This document shows, piece by piece, positions 50,020 through 55,664 of a stretch of DNA of 64,000 nucleotides (its first letter is position 1; each line of letters starts with the position of its first letter). The translations under genes and the position numbers were made by a program. The notes under the pieces are model-generated. The model did no database searches and was not told the DNA's origin. It saw only the letters and a list, made by a program, of their open reading frames with translations. Source of the DNA: an uncultured Pelagibacteraceae bacterium (GTDB lineage: Bacteria; Pseudomonadota; Alphaproteobacteria; Pelagibacterales; Pelagibacteraceae); assembly GCA_902634885.1 (NCBI GenBank), contig CACPLR010000001.1, positions 80,170 through 144,169 of the forward strand, read 5' to 3'.

Positions 50020-50355
50020 CTATTTTGTGTTACCTAATAGATTTACAATTAAAACACCTGTAATTATTAAAAATAAACCAAGGATGGTTGTAAAATTAGG
50101 AATTTGATTAAATTTTAAAACTCCTACTACACTTGTGGCTATAATACACAAACCTGCAAATGATGCGTAAGTAACTCCAACAGAAATTGATTTCATTACA
50201 AGTGAAAGTGTAAACATACAGGCAACAATTGTAATTGCAGTTAAAATACTTGGAATTAATAGAGTAAAACCTTGAGCGTTTTTTGCAAAAGCATTAGACG
50301 CTGTTCCTAAAATTACAGCAACAATTAAATATACATATGCATTTAAATTACTCAT
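50020..50355 (-). CDS. SMR-family small membrane protein lacking the conserved Glu
   Basis: 111 residues and four membrane helices, C-terminus ILGLFLIITGVLIVNLLG typical of EmrE-like SMR proteins. In helix 1 the proton/substrate Glu (position 14 in EmrE) is replaced by Gly: VAVILGTASNAFAK in place of GAILAEVIGTTLMK. The usual AIWSG is ASFAG. So it is unlikely to be a normal proton-coupled drug exporter; it may be part of a two-gene pair or transport something else. It overlaps the next upstream gene by 8 bp. Confidence 0.75.
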   Translation of the reverse strand: MSNLNAYVYLIVAVILGTASNAFAKNAQGFTLLIPSILTAITIVACMFTLSLVMKSISVGVTYASFAGLCIIATSVVGVLKFNQIPNFTTILGLFLIITGVLIVNLLGNTK

Positions 50356-50944
50356 TATTTTTTAACCAATTTATTGCATCTTCCATTCTATCATCTCCCC
50401 AAAATATTTCATTACCCACAACAAAAGAAGGACTACCAAATATTTTATGTGATCTTGCACTTTCAGTGTTTTCTAAATATTTATTTTCTATTTCTTGAGA
50501 ATTTGCATTATTTACAATTTTTTCTTTATCCAAACTAAGCTCATTACATATCTCAGAAATATTTGGCTCTGTAGCTGGTTCTTTTCCGTCTTGGAACCAT
50601 CTCTTGTAAGTCAATCTTACATAATCTACTCCCCAGCCTTCCTTTAATCCTAATATTGCAAGTTTATTTGCTAAATCAAATTCACTTAATGGGTAAGGCA
50701 CAGGAGTTTTTGCAAAAAAACCATAACCTTTAGCTCTTCTCTCTATATCTCTCCACATATAATCAACTTTATTTTGTTTGTCTTTTGGAAAAGGTATGTT
50801 GTTCATTTCCTTCATTATTGCTCTCACACTAAATGGAACCCAATTAAATTTTACATTTAATTTTTTTTCAACATCTAATATCCTAGCAACTGTCAGATAT
50901 GTATAAGTACTTCCAATTGAAAAATAAAAATCAACTTTTTCCAT
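50348..50944 (-). CDS. DsbA-like / GST-kappa 2-hydroxychromene-2-carboxylate isomerase family
   Basis: 198 residues. FYFSIGSTYTYL at the start carries Ser where DsbA has CxxC, as in GST-kappa/HCCA isomerases, and the end has FGSPSFVVGNEIFWGDDRMEDAI. Such enzymes use glutathione to isomerise aromatic intermediates, but many homologues are of unknown function. Downstream the SMR gene overlaps by 8 bp. Confidence 0.85.
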   Translation of the reverse strand: MEKVDFYFSIGSTYTYLTVARILDVEKKLNVKFNWVPFSVRAIMKEMNNIPFPKDKQNKVDYMWRDIERRAKGYGFFAKTPVPYPLSEFDLANKLAILGLKEGWGVDYVRLTYKRWFQDGKEPATEPNISEICNELSLDKEKIVNNANSQEIENKYLENTESARSHKIFGSPSFVVGNEIFWGDDRMEDAINWLKNNE

Positions 50945-50960
50945 TACTTATATTAACCTA

Positions 50961-51182
50961 TTATTTTGTGATTTTATCTACAATTTTTTTTACTAAAGGA
51001 GCAACAATTGAGGTTGCTATCATTGCAACTGGAAAACTCACAGACCATGCAGTTATAAATCTATTAAAATAATCTTTGTCAAAGCCAGTGTTAATATAGG
51101 TTATTAGGAGAGTCATCATGAAACTCATCCCACATCCCATTAAAACTATAAATAATAGGTTTGAGTATTTTTTTGAAAACAA
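50961..51182 (-). CDS. DUF2798 membrane protein
   Basis: 73 residues with two hydrophobic helices (about 5-30 and 42-64): FIVLMGCGMSFMMTLLITYINTG and FITAWSVSFPVAMIATSIVAPLV. This is the DUF2798 pattern. Function unknown. 25 bp downstream of the NTF2-like gene and on the same strand as the small-protein cluster. Confidence 0.75.
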   Translation of the reverse strand: MFSKKYSNLLFIVLMGCGMSFMMTLLITYINTGFDKDYFNRFITAWSVSFPVAMIATSIVAPLVKKIVDKITK

Positions 51183-51207: not shown

Positions 51208-51528
51208 TTATTTGTTCATCGGGGTTGCACCAGTTTCAAGTGCAAATACTTTGCCATCTTTAAATTTAAAAACAGCCATTACTGCTTCTTTATTTCCATC
51301 ATTAAATGTAACAAATGCGTGTTCAACACCAATTTCATCATTTTCATAAATAACTCTAACTTTATCTCTATTGATATCTCCACTCATTGCCCATTTTACT
51401 ACATCGTCTTTTTTTAAAACAGTTCCTGATTTATGCATCGTAAACGTATAATCGTCATGAATTATATCTCTTAATGCTGCCTCATCTTTACTCTCCATGG
51501 CTTTATTGTATTTAGCTAAAATTGACAT
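51208..51528 (-). CDS. Small NTF2-like (SnoaL-type) protein
   Basis: 106 residues: an N-terminal helix ILAKYNKAMESKDEAALRDIIHDDYTF followed by beta strands ending GNKEAVMAVFKFKDGKV, the cone-shaped NTF2/SnoaL fold. Substrate unknown. GGAG ribosome site (AAAGGAGAATAAAA) before the ATG. Last of the eight small genes between 51208 and 54012. Confidence 0.75.
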   Translation of the reverse strand: MSILAKYNKAMESKDEAALRDIIHDDYTFTMHKSGTVLKKDDVVKWAMSGDINRDKVRVIYENDEIGVEHAFVTFNDGNKEAVMAVFKFKDGKVFALETGATPMNK

Positions 51529-51547
51529 TTTTATTCTCCTTTATTTT

Positions 51548-51871
51548 TTATTTTCCTGGTTTAACAACACTATTAGCTGCATTAGCTGCATTCGTAAATG
51601 CTTTGTTATAATCAATTACCTCATGGACCATTAAATCTTCCATTAGGCCAGAATTTTTAAAAGCTATTTTTAAGGCAACAGCTTGTTCATATTCTCCTTC
51701 CACGCAAGAAATTACATCAAATCTACCTCTTACCCACTCGTAAGAAATAAGTTTTAAACCAGCGGCCTCTGTTGCCTTTTTTGTAGAAGCGAATCTGTCT
51801 GCAGTTGGTTCATTCTGCATTCTCTTCATTAACTCTCCACTTATTTTACCTATTAAATAAAATTTTGCCAT
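51548..51871 (-). CDS. Small GYD-domain-like protein
   Basis: 107 residues with YLIGKISGE, a KKATEAAGLKLISYEWVRGRFDVISCVEGE segment, then an alanine-rich C-terminus. It resembles GYD-domain proteins, small ferredoxin-like alpha/beta folds of unknown function. Strong AAAGGAGAATAA ribosome site. One base separates it from the DUF1330 gene. Confidence 0.65.
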   Translation of the reverse strand: MAKFYLIGKISGELMKRMQNEPTADRFASTKKATEAAGLKLISYEWVRGRFDVISCVEGEYEQAVALKIAFKNSGLMEDLMVHEVIDYNKAFTNAANAANSVVKPGK

Positions 51872-52159
51872 TTATTCTCCTTTAATTATTATTCCATTTG
51901 ATAAAGCGTTATCTAGACGGATTTTTTTTATTGGTTTGTATTCTTCAGATTTATACCACTCTTGAGCTTTCTCATAACTAGGAAATTTGATTACTATTGT
52001 TCTTGGGTGCTCCCAATTTCCCTCTATTAATTCAAAATCTCCACCTCTTACAATATATTCTGCCCCAAATTTCTCAGCGATTGGTTTTACTTTTTCAATA
52101 TATTCTTTGTAATTATCAGGATTTGTAATTTTAATATTAAAAATTACGTAACCAGTCAT
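51872..52159 (-). CDS. DUF1330 family protein
   Basis: 95 residues from the ATG at 52157-52159; a TTG five codons upstream is the only alternative. TGYVIFNIKITNPDNYKEYIEKV, FGAEYIVRGGDFELIEG and IVIKFPSYEKAQEWYKSEEYKPIKKIR are the DUF1330 signature, a dimeric alpha+beta barrel fold. Unknown function. No clear Shine-Dalgarno site, unlike its neighbours. Confidence 0.85.
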   Translation of the reverse strand: MTGYVIFNIKITNPDNYKEYIEKVKPIAEKFGAEYIVRGGDFELIEGNWEHPRTIVIKFPSYEKAQEWYKSEEYKPIKKIRLDNALSNGIIIKGE

Positions 52160-52205
52160 TATCTGAAATTTCAATATGATGGATTAACAATTTCAATATT
52201 TTTTT

Positions 52206-52496
52206 TTACAGATCCACTTTAGATAAATCATACAACTGAGCATTCTCTACACATTCCGCATAGATAGCTTTTGCTGTAGGATTTTTTCCCGTTACAAAAT
52301 CTTTCATTCCTTCTTCATTATGAACAGAAACTTTAAATAACATACCACTTTTATCTGGTATCATAGCTCCAACAGTTTTTTCTGGATATGCAACACTTTT
52401 TCTAACACCCATACCTTCATCTGATTGCATCCATCCCATGAAAGTATCTAATTTACCTTCTTTTATTTTAAGATGTACTAACATTTCCTTTTCCAT
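52206..52496 (-). CDS. Small alpha/beta-barrel-like protein, unknown
   Basis: 96 residues: LVHLKIKEGKLDTFMGWMQSDEG, then VGAMIPDKSGMLFKVSVHNEEGMKDFV, and a C-terminal amphipathic helix. The beta-alpha-beta pattern recalls antibiotic-biosynthesis-monooxygenase-like barrels, but I recognise no specific family. AAAGGAGG ribosome site. Confidence 0.6.
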   Translation of the reverse strand: MEKEMLVHLKIKEGKLDTFMGWMQSDEGMGVRKSVAYPEKTVGAMIPDKSGMLFKVSVHNEEGMKDFVTGKNPTAKAIYAECVENAQLYDLSKVDL

Positions 52497-52520
52497 TTAT
52501 AGCCTCCTTTTTTTGTTAAT

Positions 52521-52790
52521 TTAATCTGAGCAAATGCTCATTACTGTAGTCTCTTGTTTATGGCCAGATTTCTCAATTACTTTTGCATTCTCTGTATTCT
52601 GCATAAATTTTTGCATAGTGTCTGATGCTGGTGTTTCCATTACAATATGTACCTTATTTGGATTTTCTAATTCATGACCAACGTAAATAGTTTTGATTCC
52701 TGCCGCTTCTCTTGGACCAGAATGTTCATCAAACATTTTTTTCCAATGAGTCCAGTCTTTTACCTCAAAATTTCCAACCACTTTTACCAT
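52521..52790 (-). CDS. Small ferredoxin-fold protein, unknown
   Basis: 89 residues from ATG 52788-52790, preceded by GGGGAGAG; an upstream in-frame start adds ten residues without a ribosome site. VKVVGNFEVKDWTHWKKMFDEH, AGIKTIYVGHELENPNKVHIVMETP and EKSGHKQETTV give a dimeric alpha/beta pattern, possibly DUF3764-like. Function unknown. Confidence 0.6.
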   Translation of the reverse strand: MVKVVGNFEVKDWTHWKKMFDEHSGPREAAGIKTIYVGHELENPNKVHIVMETPASDTMQKFMQNTENAKVIEKSGHKQETTVMSICSD

Positions 52791-52827
52791 TTTACTCTCC
52801 CCACACACCACCAAAATCAATTGTTGC

Positions 52828-53211
52828 TTATTTCTTCATTGCATTGAACATGCTAAGCGTATCATCAAAGGTCATCATAACTTTAGTTTTTCCTTCATCG
52901 CTAACTTCAAAATAATGACCAAACATAGTATCCATGTTGTCAGCTGTCGCATGTACTCTAACAAATACTTTATTTCCTTCACTGATCATGTCTAAAATTT
53001 TTAAATGAAAATTTGGCCATGTAGCTGGAATTTTTGACATCGCACCCATCATAGCTTGTTTACCTTTGTGAACTCCTGACAATGGATGGACACCTTCTTT
53101 ACCAGGAAATGTCCATACAATATTGTCATCGATCATCTCATTAAAAAAAGTTTCCATATCTCCTTTACTAAAAAGCTCGTATGCTTTTCTCGTTTGCTCT
53201 TTTACGTCCAT
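52828..53211 (-). CDS. SnoaL-like NTF2-fold protein
   Basis: 127 residues with TRKAYELFSKGDMETFFNEMIDDNIVWTFPG, HPLSGVHKGKQAMMG and DMISEGNKVFVRVHATA followed by a C-terminal strand. This is a clear SnoaL-like domain, similar to ketosteroid-isomerase-related proteins. Substrate unknown. GAAAGGAA ribosome site. Confidence 0.85.
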   Translation of the reverse strand: MDVKEQTRKAYELFSKGDMETFFNEMIDDNIVWTFPGKEGVHPLSGVHKGKQAMMGAMSKIPATWPNFHLKILDMISEGNKVFVRVHATADNMDTMFGHYFEVSDEGKTKVMMTFDDTLSMFNAMKK

Positions 53212-53240
53212 AAAATATTCCTTTCGAAGTTAATTATTTA

Positions 53241-53717
53241 TTAATAAGTATATTCTCCACTCATCTGATTCATTGAGTGAGCCATTCCAGCTTTACCTTT
53301 AAGATTTTGTCTACTTGAAAATCCTGTACCTGAAATATTTTCATATTTACCAGTTCCACCAATAATAACAAAATCTCCAGAGCCACCAACGCCGCCAGTT
53401 CCTTTACCTTTATAATTTATAAATACTTTTTCCCCGTCATTTAGATAAAATGTGCACATTCCTGTTTCATCATCAAATTTACCTGCAGTTAAAGTAAGCC
53501 CTCCAATGCAATGCATGGTAGATTTATCAAATATACTTCCATCTTCTTTGTCTGAAAGTCCAGCATTACCATCATAAGTTATACTCATATTGCCATTACC
53601 AGCATTCATAACATTTACTTCCCATGAACCCATTCCACTTGCATTAAACTTTCCGGTCTCTGCTAACAAGTTAGAGGTAAATAGTGTAAAAAAAGTTAAT
53701 ATTATTATTTTTTTCAT
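53241..53717 (-). CDS. Exported small beta-barrel protein, unknown
   Basis: 158 residues from ATG 53715-53717, with AAGGAGAAAACT before it; the longer frame upstream overlaps the previous gene. Signal peptide KKIIILTFFTLFTSNLLA, cleavage near LLAETG. The mature part is Gly-rich: GSGDFVIIGGTGKYENISGTGF resembles the GGTGxY-x-x-GxG repeat of allene-oxide-cyclase-like barrels. Two Cys may form a disulfide. The only exported member of the cluster. Confidence 0.7.
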   Translation of the reverse strand: MKKIIILTFFTLFTSNLLAETGKFNASGMGSWEVNVMNAGNGNMSITYDGNAGLSDKEDGSIFDKSTMHCIGGLTLTAGKFDDETGMCTFYLNDGEKVFINYKGKGTGGVGGSGDFVIIGGTGKYENISGTGFSSRQNLKGKAGMAHSMNQMSGEYTY

Positions 53718-53727
53718 AGTTTTCTCC

Positions 53728-54012
53728 TTACATTTTTGCAAAATCCATTGTTTGTGAACATTCCTCAGAGACTGTATCAAAAAAATTATTCATATCTCCA
53801 AGTTGATCAATAATTGCTTGTGGACTTTCGGCTTGCCACTTACAAAATACCTTCATCGAGTCGCCTGCACCCATCATTGTCATATGACATACAGCCTTTT
53901 CTCCAGTTACTCCTTTTTTTAAATCCTCAGGGGATGTTGAACTTACAACTTCATGAAATTTTTTTTTCATCTCCTCAGACTTAAATATATGCGTTGCTAA
54001 ATAGTCTTTCAT
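53728..54012 (-). CDS. Small protein of unknown family, first gene of the cluster
   Basis: 94 residues: ATHIFKSEEMKKKFHEVVSS, then KAVCHMTMMGAGDSMKVFCKWQAESPQAIIDQL and a C-terminal FAKM. Beta-alpha-beta content with three Cys; I recognise no family, though it recalls ferredoxin-like sensor proteins. CTTAAGGAGGGTT ribosome site before the ATG. It heads the minus-strand run 54012-51208. Confidence 0.6.
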   Translation of the reverse strand: MKDYLATHIFKSEEMKKKFHEVVSSTSPEDLKKGVTGEKAVCHMTMMGAGDSMKVFCKWQAESPQAIIDQLGDMNNFFDTVSEECSQTMDFAKM

Positions 54013-54039
54013 TATAACCCTCCTTAAGAGCTTAATTAA

Positions 54040-54073
54040 TTACAAAGAAAAATTGTAAACTTTATATTACAAT
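54040..54073. promoter_or_regulatory. Three TTACAA/TTGTAA half-sites upstream of the small-protein cluster
   Basis: TTACAA at 54040-54045, TTGTAA at 54053-54058 and TTACAA at 54067-54072, in alternating orientation with 7- and 8-bp spacers, in the 76-bp gap between cysK and the cluster. The outer pair forms a 7-bp perfect inverted repeat ATTGTAA/TTACAAT (54052-54073) followed on the minus strand by TTTTT, so it could instead act as a weak cysK terminator. Confidence 0.4.
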
Positions 54074-54088
54074 ACTGGTATGTGATTT

Positions 54089-55090
54089 TTAGATCCAACT
54101 AGGAGTAGGTAGGCCTTTTTCTTGTAAAAATTTTTTATTAAACATCTTTGAGTTGTATTTATCTGATTTGTCGCAGAGAATTGTTACAATAGTTTTTCCT
54201 GGACCAATTAACTTACCAAGTCTAATTGCTCCAGCAATATTTACACCACAACTAGTGCCTAAGCTTAATCCCTCTTCTTTTATTAGATTATAAAGCAAAG
54301 GCAAAGACTCGTGGTCATCAATTGAAAATGCTCCATCTATTTTTGCTTCAGCAAAATTTGCTGTTACTCTACTGGACCCAATACCTTCAGTTATTGAACC
54401 ACCTTCGGATTTTAATTCACCATTTTCAATGAAATTGTATAAGGCAGAACCTGCTGGATCAGATAAATATATTTTTATATCTTTGTTTTTTTCTTTTAAA
54501 TAACTACTTATCCCTCCAATCGTTCCACCTGTGCCTGATGCACAAACAAATCCATCTACCTTACCTTCTGTTTGATCCCATATTTCAGGTCCAGTTGTTT
54601 CATAATGACCTCTAGCATTTGCAGTATTGTCAAATTGGTTTGCCCAGACGACTCCGTAATTATTTGAGTTTTTTAATTCTTCTGCAAGTCTACCTGCAAC
54701 TTTTACATAATTGCCATCATCACTGTAAGGTTTTGGTGGTACTAACCTTAAATCTGCACCGATATTTATTAAAGTATCTTTTTTTTCTTGTGTTTGATTA
54801 TCGTTCATTACAATTGTTGTTTTATAACCTAAAGAATTTCCTAGAAGACATAAACCTATACCAGTATTACCTGCTGTTCCTTCAACAATCATTCCACCTT
54901 TTGAAATTAATTTTTTTTCTTCAGCATCTTTTATAAGTGCCAAAGCCGCTCTGTCTTTTACAGATCCCCCCGGATTTAAATATTCTGCTTTTCCATAAAT
55001 ATTACATCCAGTTATCTCTGAGGCTGCTTTTAATTTTATTAAGGGAGTATTACCAATTGACTGTAAAAAATTATCTTTGATATTAACCAT
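54089..55090 (-). CDS. cysK: Cysteine synthase A-type PLP enzyme
   Basis: 333 residues from ATG 55088-55090; an upstream in-frame start exists but adds only seven residues. [12 protein letters not shown], the PLP-lysine region [13 protein letters not shown] (Lys about 39), GTAGNTGIG and [11 protein letters not shown]. The C-terminal part is typical of long CysK. It makes cysteine from O-acetylserine and sulfide. It overlaps cysE by 8 bp, so the operon is cysE-cysK. Confidence 0.93.
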
Positions 55091-55664
55091 TGTTATTTTC
55101 TGAATTGTCATTTTCTACAGCATAAGGTTTAAATTCTTCTGTAGCAGTTCCAACATTCTTTGCTGGTATTCCTATCATCACAGCATTTTCCTCAACATTT
55201 TTTGTTACAACAGCATTTGCTCCAATTTTTGAATTTTTTCCTACTACTACAGGACCTAATATTTGTGCACCAGATCCAACGACTACATTATCCATTAAGG
55301 TAGGATGTCTTTTTATATTTCTTTGATTATTAGAATTAATACTTGGAGATATACCTCCTAAAGTAACCATATGATATATTGTGACATTATCACCAATTTC
55401 AGACGTTTCACCTATTACAACTCCCATCCCATGATCTATAAATAAATTTTTACCAATCTTTGCACCAGGATGAATTTCAATACCTGTTAGGAATCTTGAA
55501 AACTGCGAAATAATTCTCGCAATTAAATCAAATTTAGCTACTGAAAAAAAATGAGCCAATCTATGAAAAAACACAGCTTTAACACCTGGATAAGTCAATA
55601 TCAAACTTAATTTAGACTTCGCTGCTGGATCTCTGTCAATAATTGATTGTAAAAAGTCACTCAT
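55083..55664 (-). CDS. cysE: Serine O-acetyltransferase
   Basis: 193 residues, the short (EpsC-like) form without the long N-terminal helical domain. [17 protein letters not shown] and FHRLAHFF at the start, left-handed beta-helix with hexapeptide repeats and [14 protein letters not shown]. It activates serine for cysteine synthesis. It is first gene of the cysE-cysK pair, divergent from the peroxiredoxin gene. Confidence 0.95.

Follow-up and report, generated by a model that had tools for sequence, protein, structure and literature searches.

A row of small genes behind cysE-cysK

The window, the whole 64-kb stretch of DNA analysed here, comes from an uncultured Pelagibacteraceae (SAR11) bacterium with a 1.17-Mb assembly that is 79% complete. 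On its minus strand, at positions 51208-54012, eight open reading frames (ORFs) lie in a row; they encode proteins of 89-158 amino acids (aa), are spaced 0-46 nt apart and were named gA-gH. We refer to this row and its counterparts in related genomes as the block. The nearest matches of gE on named contigs were Pelagibacteraceae assemblies. An earlier note on this DNA had described eight minus-strand genes of 89-158 residues here, and its coordinates match ours. The genes, their flanks and the region in front of gA are as follows.

54089..55664, minus strand: cysK and cysE, upstream flank and anchor, named by sequence reading without profile support
54013..54088, minus strand: cysK-gA intergenic region, 76 nt, containing ACATACCAG, the dyad ATTGTAA..TTTACAAT and the gA Shine-Dalgarno (SD) site
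53728..54012, minus strand: gA, 94 aa, without a Pfam family above cut-off
53241..53717, minus strand: gB, 158 aa, predicted eight-stranded barrel (AlphaFold2)
52828..53211, minus strand: gC, 127 aa, SnoaL_2/SnoaL, NTF2-like (Pfam)
52521..52790, minus strand: gD, 89 aa, DUF3764 (Pfam)
52206..52496, minus strand: gE, 96 aa, predicted ferredoxin-like/DABB (AlphaFold2), the widespread signature gene
51872..52159, minus strand: gF, 95 aa, DUF1330 (Pfam), without an SD site
51548..51871, minus strand: gG, 107 aa, GYD-like (sub-cut-off Pfam score)
51208..51528, minus strand: gH, 106 aa, SnoaL_2/DUF4440, NTF2-like (Pfam), the 3' member of the block
50961..51182, minus strand: gI, DUF2798 membrane protein, downstream flank (Pfam, 74.3 bits against a cut-off of 23.5)
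50348..50944, minus strand: gJ, DsbA family (Pfam profile), downstream slot gene
50020..50355, minus strand: gK, small multidrug resistance (SMR) family, downstream flank (53.6 bits against a cut-off of 23.7)

The DsbA-family, DUF2798 and SMR profiles confirm the downstream genes that had been proposed as a GST-kappa-type isomerase, a DUF2798 protein and an SMR protein; gJ is the one we take to be like GST-kappa. No tRNA was found in the window, and no Rfam family reached its gathering score within these 64 kb. A plastid intron match at 53944-53973, inside gA, lay below threshold and was taken as chance. A 41-nt direct repeat (76%) at 51512-51552 and 51853-51893 spans the SD and start regions of gH and gG.

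Strong translation signals in the block

We defined a strong SD site as an anti-Shine-Dalgarno pairing energy at or below -6 kcal/mol. Such sites precede six of the eight block genes, compared with 5 of the 62 other called genes in the window (Fisher p=9e-5); the neighbouring CMD-family and peroxiredoxin genes account for two of the five. The exceptions in the block are gC, with a weaker site (-4.0), and gF, with none (-0.9), which agrees with the earlier claim that seven of the eight carry SD sites and differ in this from most genes here. Neither gJ (-3.6) nor gK (-2.7) has a strong site.

The same signal was seen in 128 loci, the families being referred to by the letter of the window gene or by a c number. 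Upstream regions of module-family genes (n=803) had a median energy of -6.6 against -0.8 for other genes (n=1297), with a p-value of 2e-119 that is inflated because the loci are related. Strong sites were present in 73-100% of families A, B, D, E, G, H, c21, c23 and c48, in 53% of C and c38, and in 48% of c9, 31% of c12, 23% of c1, 12% of F and 0/5 of c61. Outside the block they were absent from cysE (0/81), J (0/28), K (0/100), I (0/17) and c32 (0/18), and rare in cysK (9% of 94) and c46 (9% of 11). The incomplete window genome yielded no ribosomal L2, and relatives supplied the reference instead; ribosomal-protein regions of three of these were weaker, with medians of -3.55 to -4.0.

Protein families and predicted folds

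In Pfam, gC scored 46.2 bits for SnoaL_2 (gathering cut-off 27), gH 30.2 bits for SnoaL_2 and 29.9 for DUF4440 (cut-offs 27 and 25.2), gD 43.2 bits for DUF3764 (cut-off 24) and gF 109.7 bits for DUF1330 (cut-off 23). The GYD score of gG (25.6 bits, E=1.3e-5) lay below its gathering score of 31.4, and we call this protein GYD-like only. For gA, which had been described as an orphan, the one trace of a family was a sub-cut-off SCO4226-like score (16.3 against 28.5 bits); the protein is 41-48% identical to 16 chosen relatives, and Cys residues C42 and C57 are invariant in 17/17 sequences. No Pfam family was above cut-off for gB or gE, and no block protein came near a cut-off in NCBIfam. PDB sequence searches matched gC to EGC068 (1tuh, E=1.2e-5) and IdmH (E=0.0011), and gave no convincing match for gE, gA, gB, gG, c12, c38 or c21. 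The protein gF matched 2fiu (E=3e-15) and 3lo3 (E=2e-10).

The N-terminus of gB, judged by eye, resembles a signal peptide. Its AlphaFold2 model, an eight-stranded barrel built from an alignment of 7 sequences, had a mean pLDDT (the model's own confidence score) of 81.5, and the nearest folds in Foldseek were the PloI4 cyclase, dirigent proteins and allene oxide cyclase (AOC). All 25 matches at E<=0.001 belonged to this AOC/dirigent/PloI4 group, apart from 2q03, an uncharacterised Shewanella protein. For gE the alignment was shallow and mean pLDDT ranged from 82.4 in the best of five models to 69.7 in the worst. Its top matches were LsrG (E=4.7e-4), NIPSNAP and ABM proteins, which points to a ferredoxin-like/DABB monomer fold; only monomers were predicted.

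The earlier list of folds was thus essentially right, through profiles for gC (called SnoaL), gH (called NTF2-like) and gF (called DUF1330) and through models for gE and gB, with GYD falling short for gG. Comparing profiles of the small families with one another gave best values of 41% for F-D and 50% for F-E. Similarities of 61-92% among B, c1, c23, c38 and c61 probably reflect shared signal peptides. The non-barrel families among the 16 that we followed include c1 and c23, which look exported, and c9, a membrane protein.

A mosaic block with a conserved order

CysK was found in 48 of the 61 genus genomes, window included, and 47 regions were fetched; 80 further loci were drawn via gE. At least one of the 16 small families lay within 6 kb in 44 of the 48 cysK-anchored loci. 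The four block-less loci were all cut by contig ends: in L129, L130 and L146 the contig ends inside cysK or no more than 1.6 kb past it, and in L141 it ends 2.6 kb past cysK, with a block on another contig of the same genome. We counted 30 different sets of 1-9 families each across the 44 loci. Among 94 cysK loci, ORF calls gave 73 arrangements, some cut by contig ends, and the exact gene order of the window occurred in 4. A six-frame check of the same families with hidden Markov models (HMMs) covered 65 complete cysK-IMP loci, which showed 28 sets in total and 43 arrangements.

The relative order of the families was far more stable. Of 2058 pair observations from 73 arrangements, which take in the downstream slot genes, 93.7% agreed with the majority order; 500 shuffles averaged 60.1% and never exceeded 62.5%. 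Some families pair together across loci and some avoid each other. In the 65 loci the slot after gH held J in 20, c32 in 17, the cupredoxin c46 in 4 and none of these in 24, and never two of the three together; in loci other than the window's, the gJ slot can hold a cupredoxin-like protein or one that reads as TPR-like. In L139, a closed genome of 1,343,202 bp, only c1, c9 and H are left of the block, and after them come a 184-aa gene and the SMR gene. A 384-385-aa gene precedes the block in L123 and L124, directly after cysK, and in L145, after cysK and c9; its sequence reads like an FMN (flavin mononucleotide)-dependent alpha-hydroxy-acid dehydrogenase.

These comparisons, made at the level of sequence, give good support to a tight mosaic block across SAR11. 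Packing, SD sites, kept linkage and the recurring upstream element described below favour the grouping into one unit that the earlier note had suggested. We looked for homologues scattered without linkage, and this is not the pattern found. The idea of one undescribed pathway fares worse if it means a fixed set of steps, given the 4 loci with the exact order and the range of set sizes: it is the relative order that is kept across SAR11, not the set of eight. A fixed-step biosynthetic or catabolic pathway, such as one in which cyclases and isomerases convert a single metabolite, would be in keeping with the known cyclases among SnoaL, olivetolic-acid-cyclase (OAC)-type DABB and AOC/PloI4-type folds. 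However, none of the recurring block families is a synthase, an oxygenase or a ligase, membership varies by single genes, and only 1-3 families are present in 10 of the 44 loci; we regard such a pathway as very unlikely.

Recent exchange of module genes

Exchange was tested in 59 loci on pairs with cysK identity of at most 92%, a pair being flagged if synonymous identity exceeded that of cysK by more than 0.25. This flagged 37 of the 4399 module gene pairs and none of the 3999 pairs from nine flank genes. The flagged pairs belonged to E (17/813), A (7/327), c12 (5/126), c23 (3/24), C (2/192), c1 (2/539) and F (1/696); the flank genes were cysE (0/1373), K (0/940), IMP (0/705), m368 (0/435), ahpD (0/301), J (0/162), I (0/47), c46 (0/20) and c32 (0/16). 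This indicates recent exchange across divergent genomes for some module genes and for none of the flank genes tested, probably by homologous recombination. For recombination at the flanks only broad alignments were obtained.

An element upstream of the block

In many loci the interval from cysK to the first block gene contains GCATACCAG, followed by TGTAAY-N6-RTTACA. The core of the element is GCATACCWG, often with a TGTAA-N8-TTACA-like dyad, the spacing of which is presumably like that of a TyrR box. In the window form, ACATACCAG, an A replaces the first G, which places it outside the exact matches. In 1.45 Mb of loci, 69 of 73 matches to GCATACCWG lay no more than 160 nt upstream of a module-family gene. 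We thinned upstream regions at 80% similarity, from 136 to 42 for first genes (including some family members outside the block), from 552 to 202 for other genes and from 679 to 149 for internal genes. GCATACC then occurred in 11/42 first-gene, 0/202 other and 0/149 internal regions, its relaxed form in 18, 3 and 0, and TGTAA-N10-ACA in 13, 0 and 0, respectively. The exact composite motif was present once each in 15 of the 61 genomes, every time at 8 bases behind the cysK match and without a second copy in those genomes; the reversed composite, used as a control, had 0 matches in the 61 genomes. Among 93 cysK loci, relaxed GCATACC lay within 40 nt of the stop codon in 56, the relaxed dyad in 62 and both in 46. 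In L131 and L133-L135, c9 and the first block gene point away from each other, and the intergenic stretch between them holds a TGCATATCTGT-like form of the element.

General scans of the window showed no excess: 26 consensus promoters were counted where shuffles gave 33, 2 terminators where they gave 2.0, and 18 dyads with up to two mismatches where they gave 22. We take the element as a candidate block-linked promoter or operator. The dyad may instead be the terminator of cysEK, and a T run follows it in many cysK loci. That the whole element is only this intrinsic terminator, leaving the block without control of its own, would be compatible with an operon and seems to us unlikely. The element is missing, by eye, in 13 inspected cysK loci without a directly following same-strand block gene (L123-125, L129-131, L133-135, L141-143 and L145). 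The GCATACC core with a weaker dyad also stands before the block at non-cysK sites, and at four of those inspected the upstream gene is divergent (L056, L064, L075 and L098); both findings speak against a mere terminator.

Other genomic sites and distribution

A single match to gE was found in 35 of the 61 genus genomes, in 31 of these within 3 kb of cysK. Outside the genus the gene appears rare, because it was found in only 3 of 289 genomes of a class sample, window genome included. The conservation of gE varies with lineage: identity is 85-97% across 19 chosen relatives and falls to 41% between other pairs. In one genome a gE match (G009:C2:17575-17859) contains one TAG stop, which reflects either decay or an error in the sequence. 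Among the loci drawn via gE, many lack cysK and carry c1-F-E-A-c9-c21-G, or parts of this row, beside other genes; in G024 and G055, both of the genus, the block is located elsewhere than at cysK. A different alphaproteobacterial family provides two genomes in which E-c48-c12-H and E-c48-H lie together at an unrelated site.

A class-level search with gG (E<=1e-10) matched, besides the window genome, 1 of 288 genomes, of the same genus. The window genome encodes a second GYD-like protein (G000:C1:35620-35907, L161) with 32% identity to gG. In L107, L113, L117, L126, L132, L136 and others, a gene of the gG cluster is divergent from a gene of about 480 aa (cluster 44), several kb off the block, and this neighbourhood is apparently a second home of the GYD-like family. 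For c12 there was no match in 398 phylum genomes, a sample without a positive control and hence uninformative.

An alternative is that the site behind cysK is an insertion-tolerant spot, or flexible genomic island, which gathers unrelated small genes without a common function. The content is indeed highly variable, unrelated larger genes are inserted in L123, L124, L125 and L145, and SAR11 is known to have flexible islands (PMC7318151, PMC4033161). However, these gene families are found side by side again at further sites and in a second bacterial family, their order is kept, most share a fold class and strong SD sites, and the upstream element accompanies many blocks. We judge a mere collecting site to be rather unlikely.

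A possible role in detoxification

Read together, these data lead us to propose, tentatively and at somewhat less than an even chance, that the block is a co-regulated, exchangeable operon of small-molecule-binding-type proteins, probably for detoxification. As the sequences show, its genes encode small ligand-binding-type folds (ferredoxin-like/DABB, NTF2-like, cupin and AOC-like) and some small proteins that are exported or lie in the membrane; they occupy a favoured position after cysE-cysK, mostly keep their order and differ in membership from strain to strain. The operon would have its own promoter and regulator. Each small protein might bind, isomerise or break down a small hydrophobic, aromatic or oxidised compound, and the set could form a strain-tuned kit against reactive electrophiles, photo-oxidation products or compounds from other plankton. 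Fold classes of this kind often bind or isomerise small hydrophobic molecules. The fold classes, the strain-specific membership and the stress-type neighbours fit such a kit; these neighbours are the peroxiredoxin, CMD-family and DsbA-family genes in the window and glyoxalase, metallo-beta-lactamase and SelR-domain genes in relatives. A stress response is possible. That the locus is a dedicated chemical-defence operon, with fixed-order slots filled from at least 16 families under one control element and a strain-set neutralisation of toxic or photo-oxidised molecules, appears doubtful to us.

Several observations weigh against the detoxification operon. The fold classes serve many roles and the link from fold to function is weak; for gE the best Z of 8.0 is middling, with ribosomal S6 and NikR as near-equal matches. 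Families F, c1, c12 and c61 mostly lack strong SD sites. The exact composite element is missing from 46 of the 61 genomes, the window's included, 21 of the 93 cysK loci have neither relaxed GCATACC nor dyad, and no clear copy was apparent by eye in two relocated blocks (L152, L153) or at the loci from the distant family (L150, L151); a possible role of the dyad as terminator points the same way. No recent exchange was seen for B, D, G, H, c9, c38 or c48 (0 flagged pairs), and the exchange signal is weakened because short genes reach extremes more easily than long flanks. The 80 further loci are biased towards gE, and counts were made over related loci with ancestry uncorrected.

Small diverse proteins in rows, some of them NTF2-like and with fast turnover, also resemble immunity clusters, and NTF2-like immunity proteins are mentioned in PMC4608573 (see also PMC3482391). 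The block could then be an array whose proteins confer immunity or resistance to diverse toxins from competitors or phages. Among the representative neighbour sequences read, none was recognised as a toxin or delivery gene, not all neighbours having been profile-scanned, and peptide patterns found no relatives of gE, gA, gH or gG in IMG/VR viral contigs; we consider this array highly improbable.

PMC4608573, which deals with an NTF2-like DUF1348 protein in work on the cercosporin resistance of a fungus, offers no more than an analogy. No description of the locus was found among the listed papers on SAR11/Pelagibacter or DUF3764, mostly open-access and judged largely from titles and abstracts. 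In PMC10434023, DUF3764 stands in a table row assigned to Prochlorococcus.

The streamlined genome, together with a strain-variable row that has strong translation signals and a recurring upstream element, suggests a function whose nature varies among strains living side by side and that repays its cost. SAR11 are the most abundant bacteria of the ocean, with streamlined genomes. If ligands were found, SAR11 microdiversity could be tied to concrete seawater chemistry, and the upstream element would be a handle toward the regulator and inducer.

Comparison with known systems

The block is like the replacement flexible genomic islands of SAR11 and other aquatic bacteria in its preferred site, conserved flanks, strain-variable content and recent gene exchange. 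Its location between conserved flanks is equivalent in 44 of the 48 cysK loci, G024 and G055 being off-site, and content differs by strain (30 sets in 44 loci, or 28 in 65 by HMM). The account of SAR11 flexible islands in PMC7318151 mentions neither cysK nor cysteine. Unlike replacement islands, the block is small, lies on one strand, consists mostly of like fold classes and largely keeps its order; it also differs in the strong SD sites of most families, the upstream element and its recurrence elsewhere.

Integron gene-cassette arrays are likewise rows of small exchangeable genes of ligand-binding type, and among solved structures the one nearest to gC in sequence is EGC068, which we take to be an environmental cassette protein. 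The block differs from such arrays in its largely kept gene order. No clear attC-like sites were found by a window-only repeat search blind to copies less than about 65% alike, which returned the one 41-nt repeat and otherwise weak scattered repeats.

Among proteins, the gE model appears to share the fold of DABB/NIPSNAP/ABM proteins, LsrG and olivetolic acid cyclase, at 8-19% identity in the 50 Foldseek rows shown, a range in which the enzyme family is not assignable from the fold. The gB model likewise seems to share the allene oxide cyclase/dirigent/PloI4 barrel, at 11-15% identity and TM (template-modelling) scores of about 0.4-0.6 in 25 rows, with the signal-peptide-like N-terminus as a difference. 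The element upstream of the block is the new feature described here.

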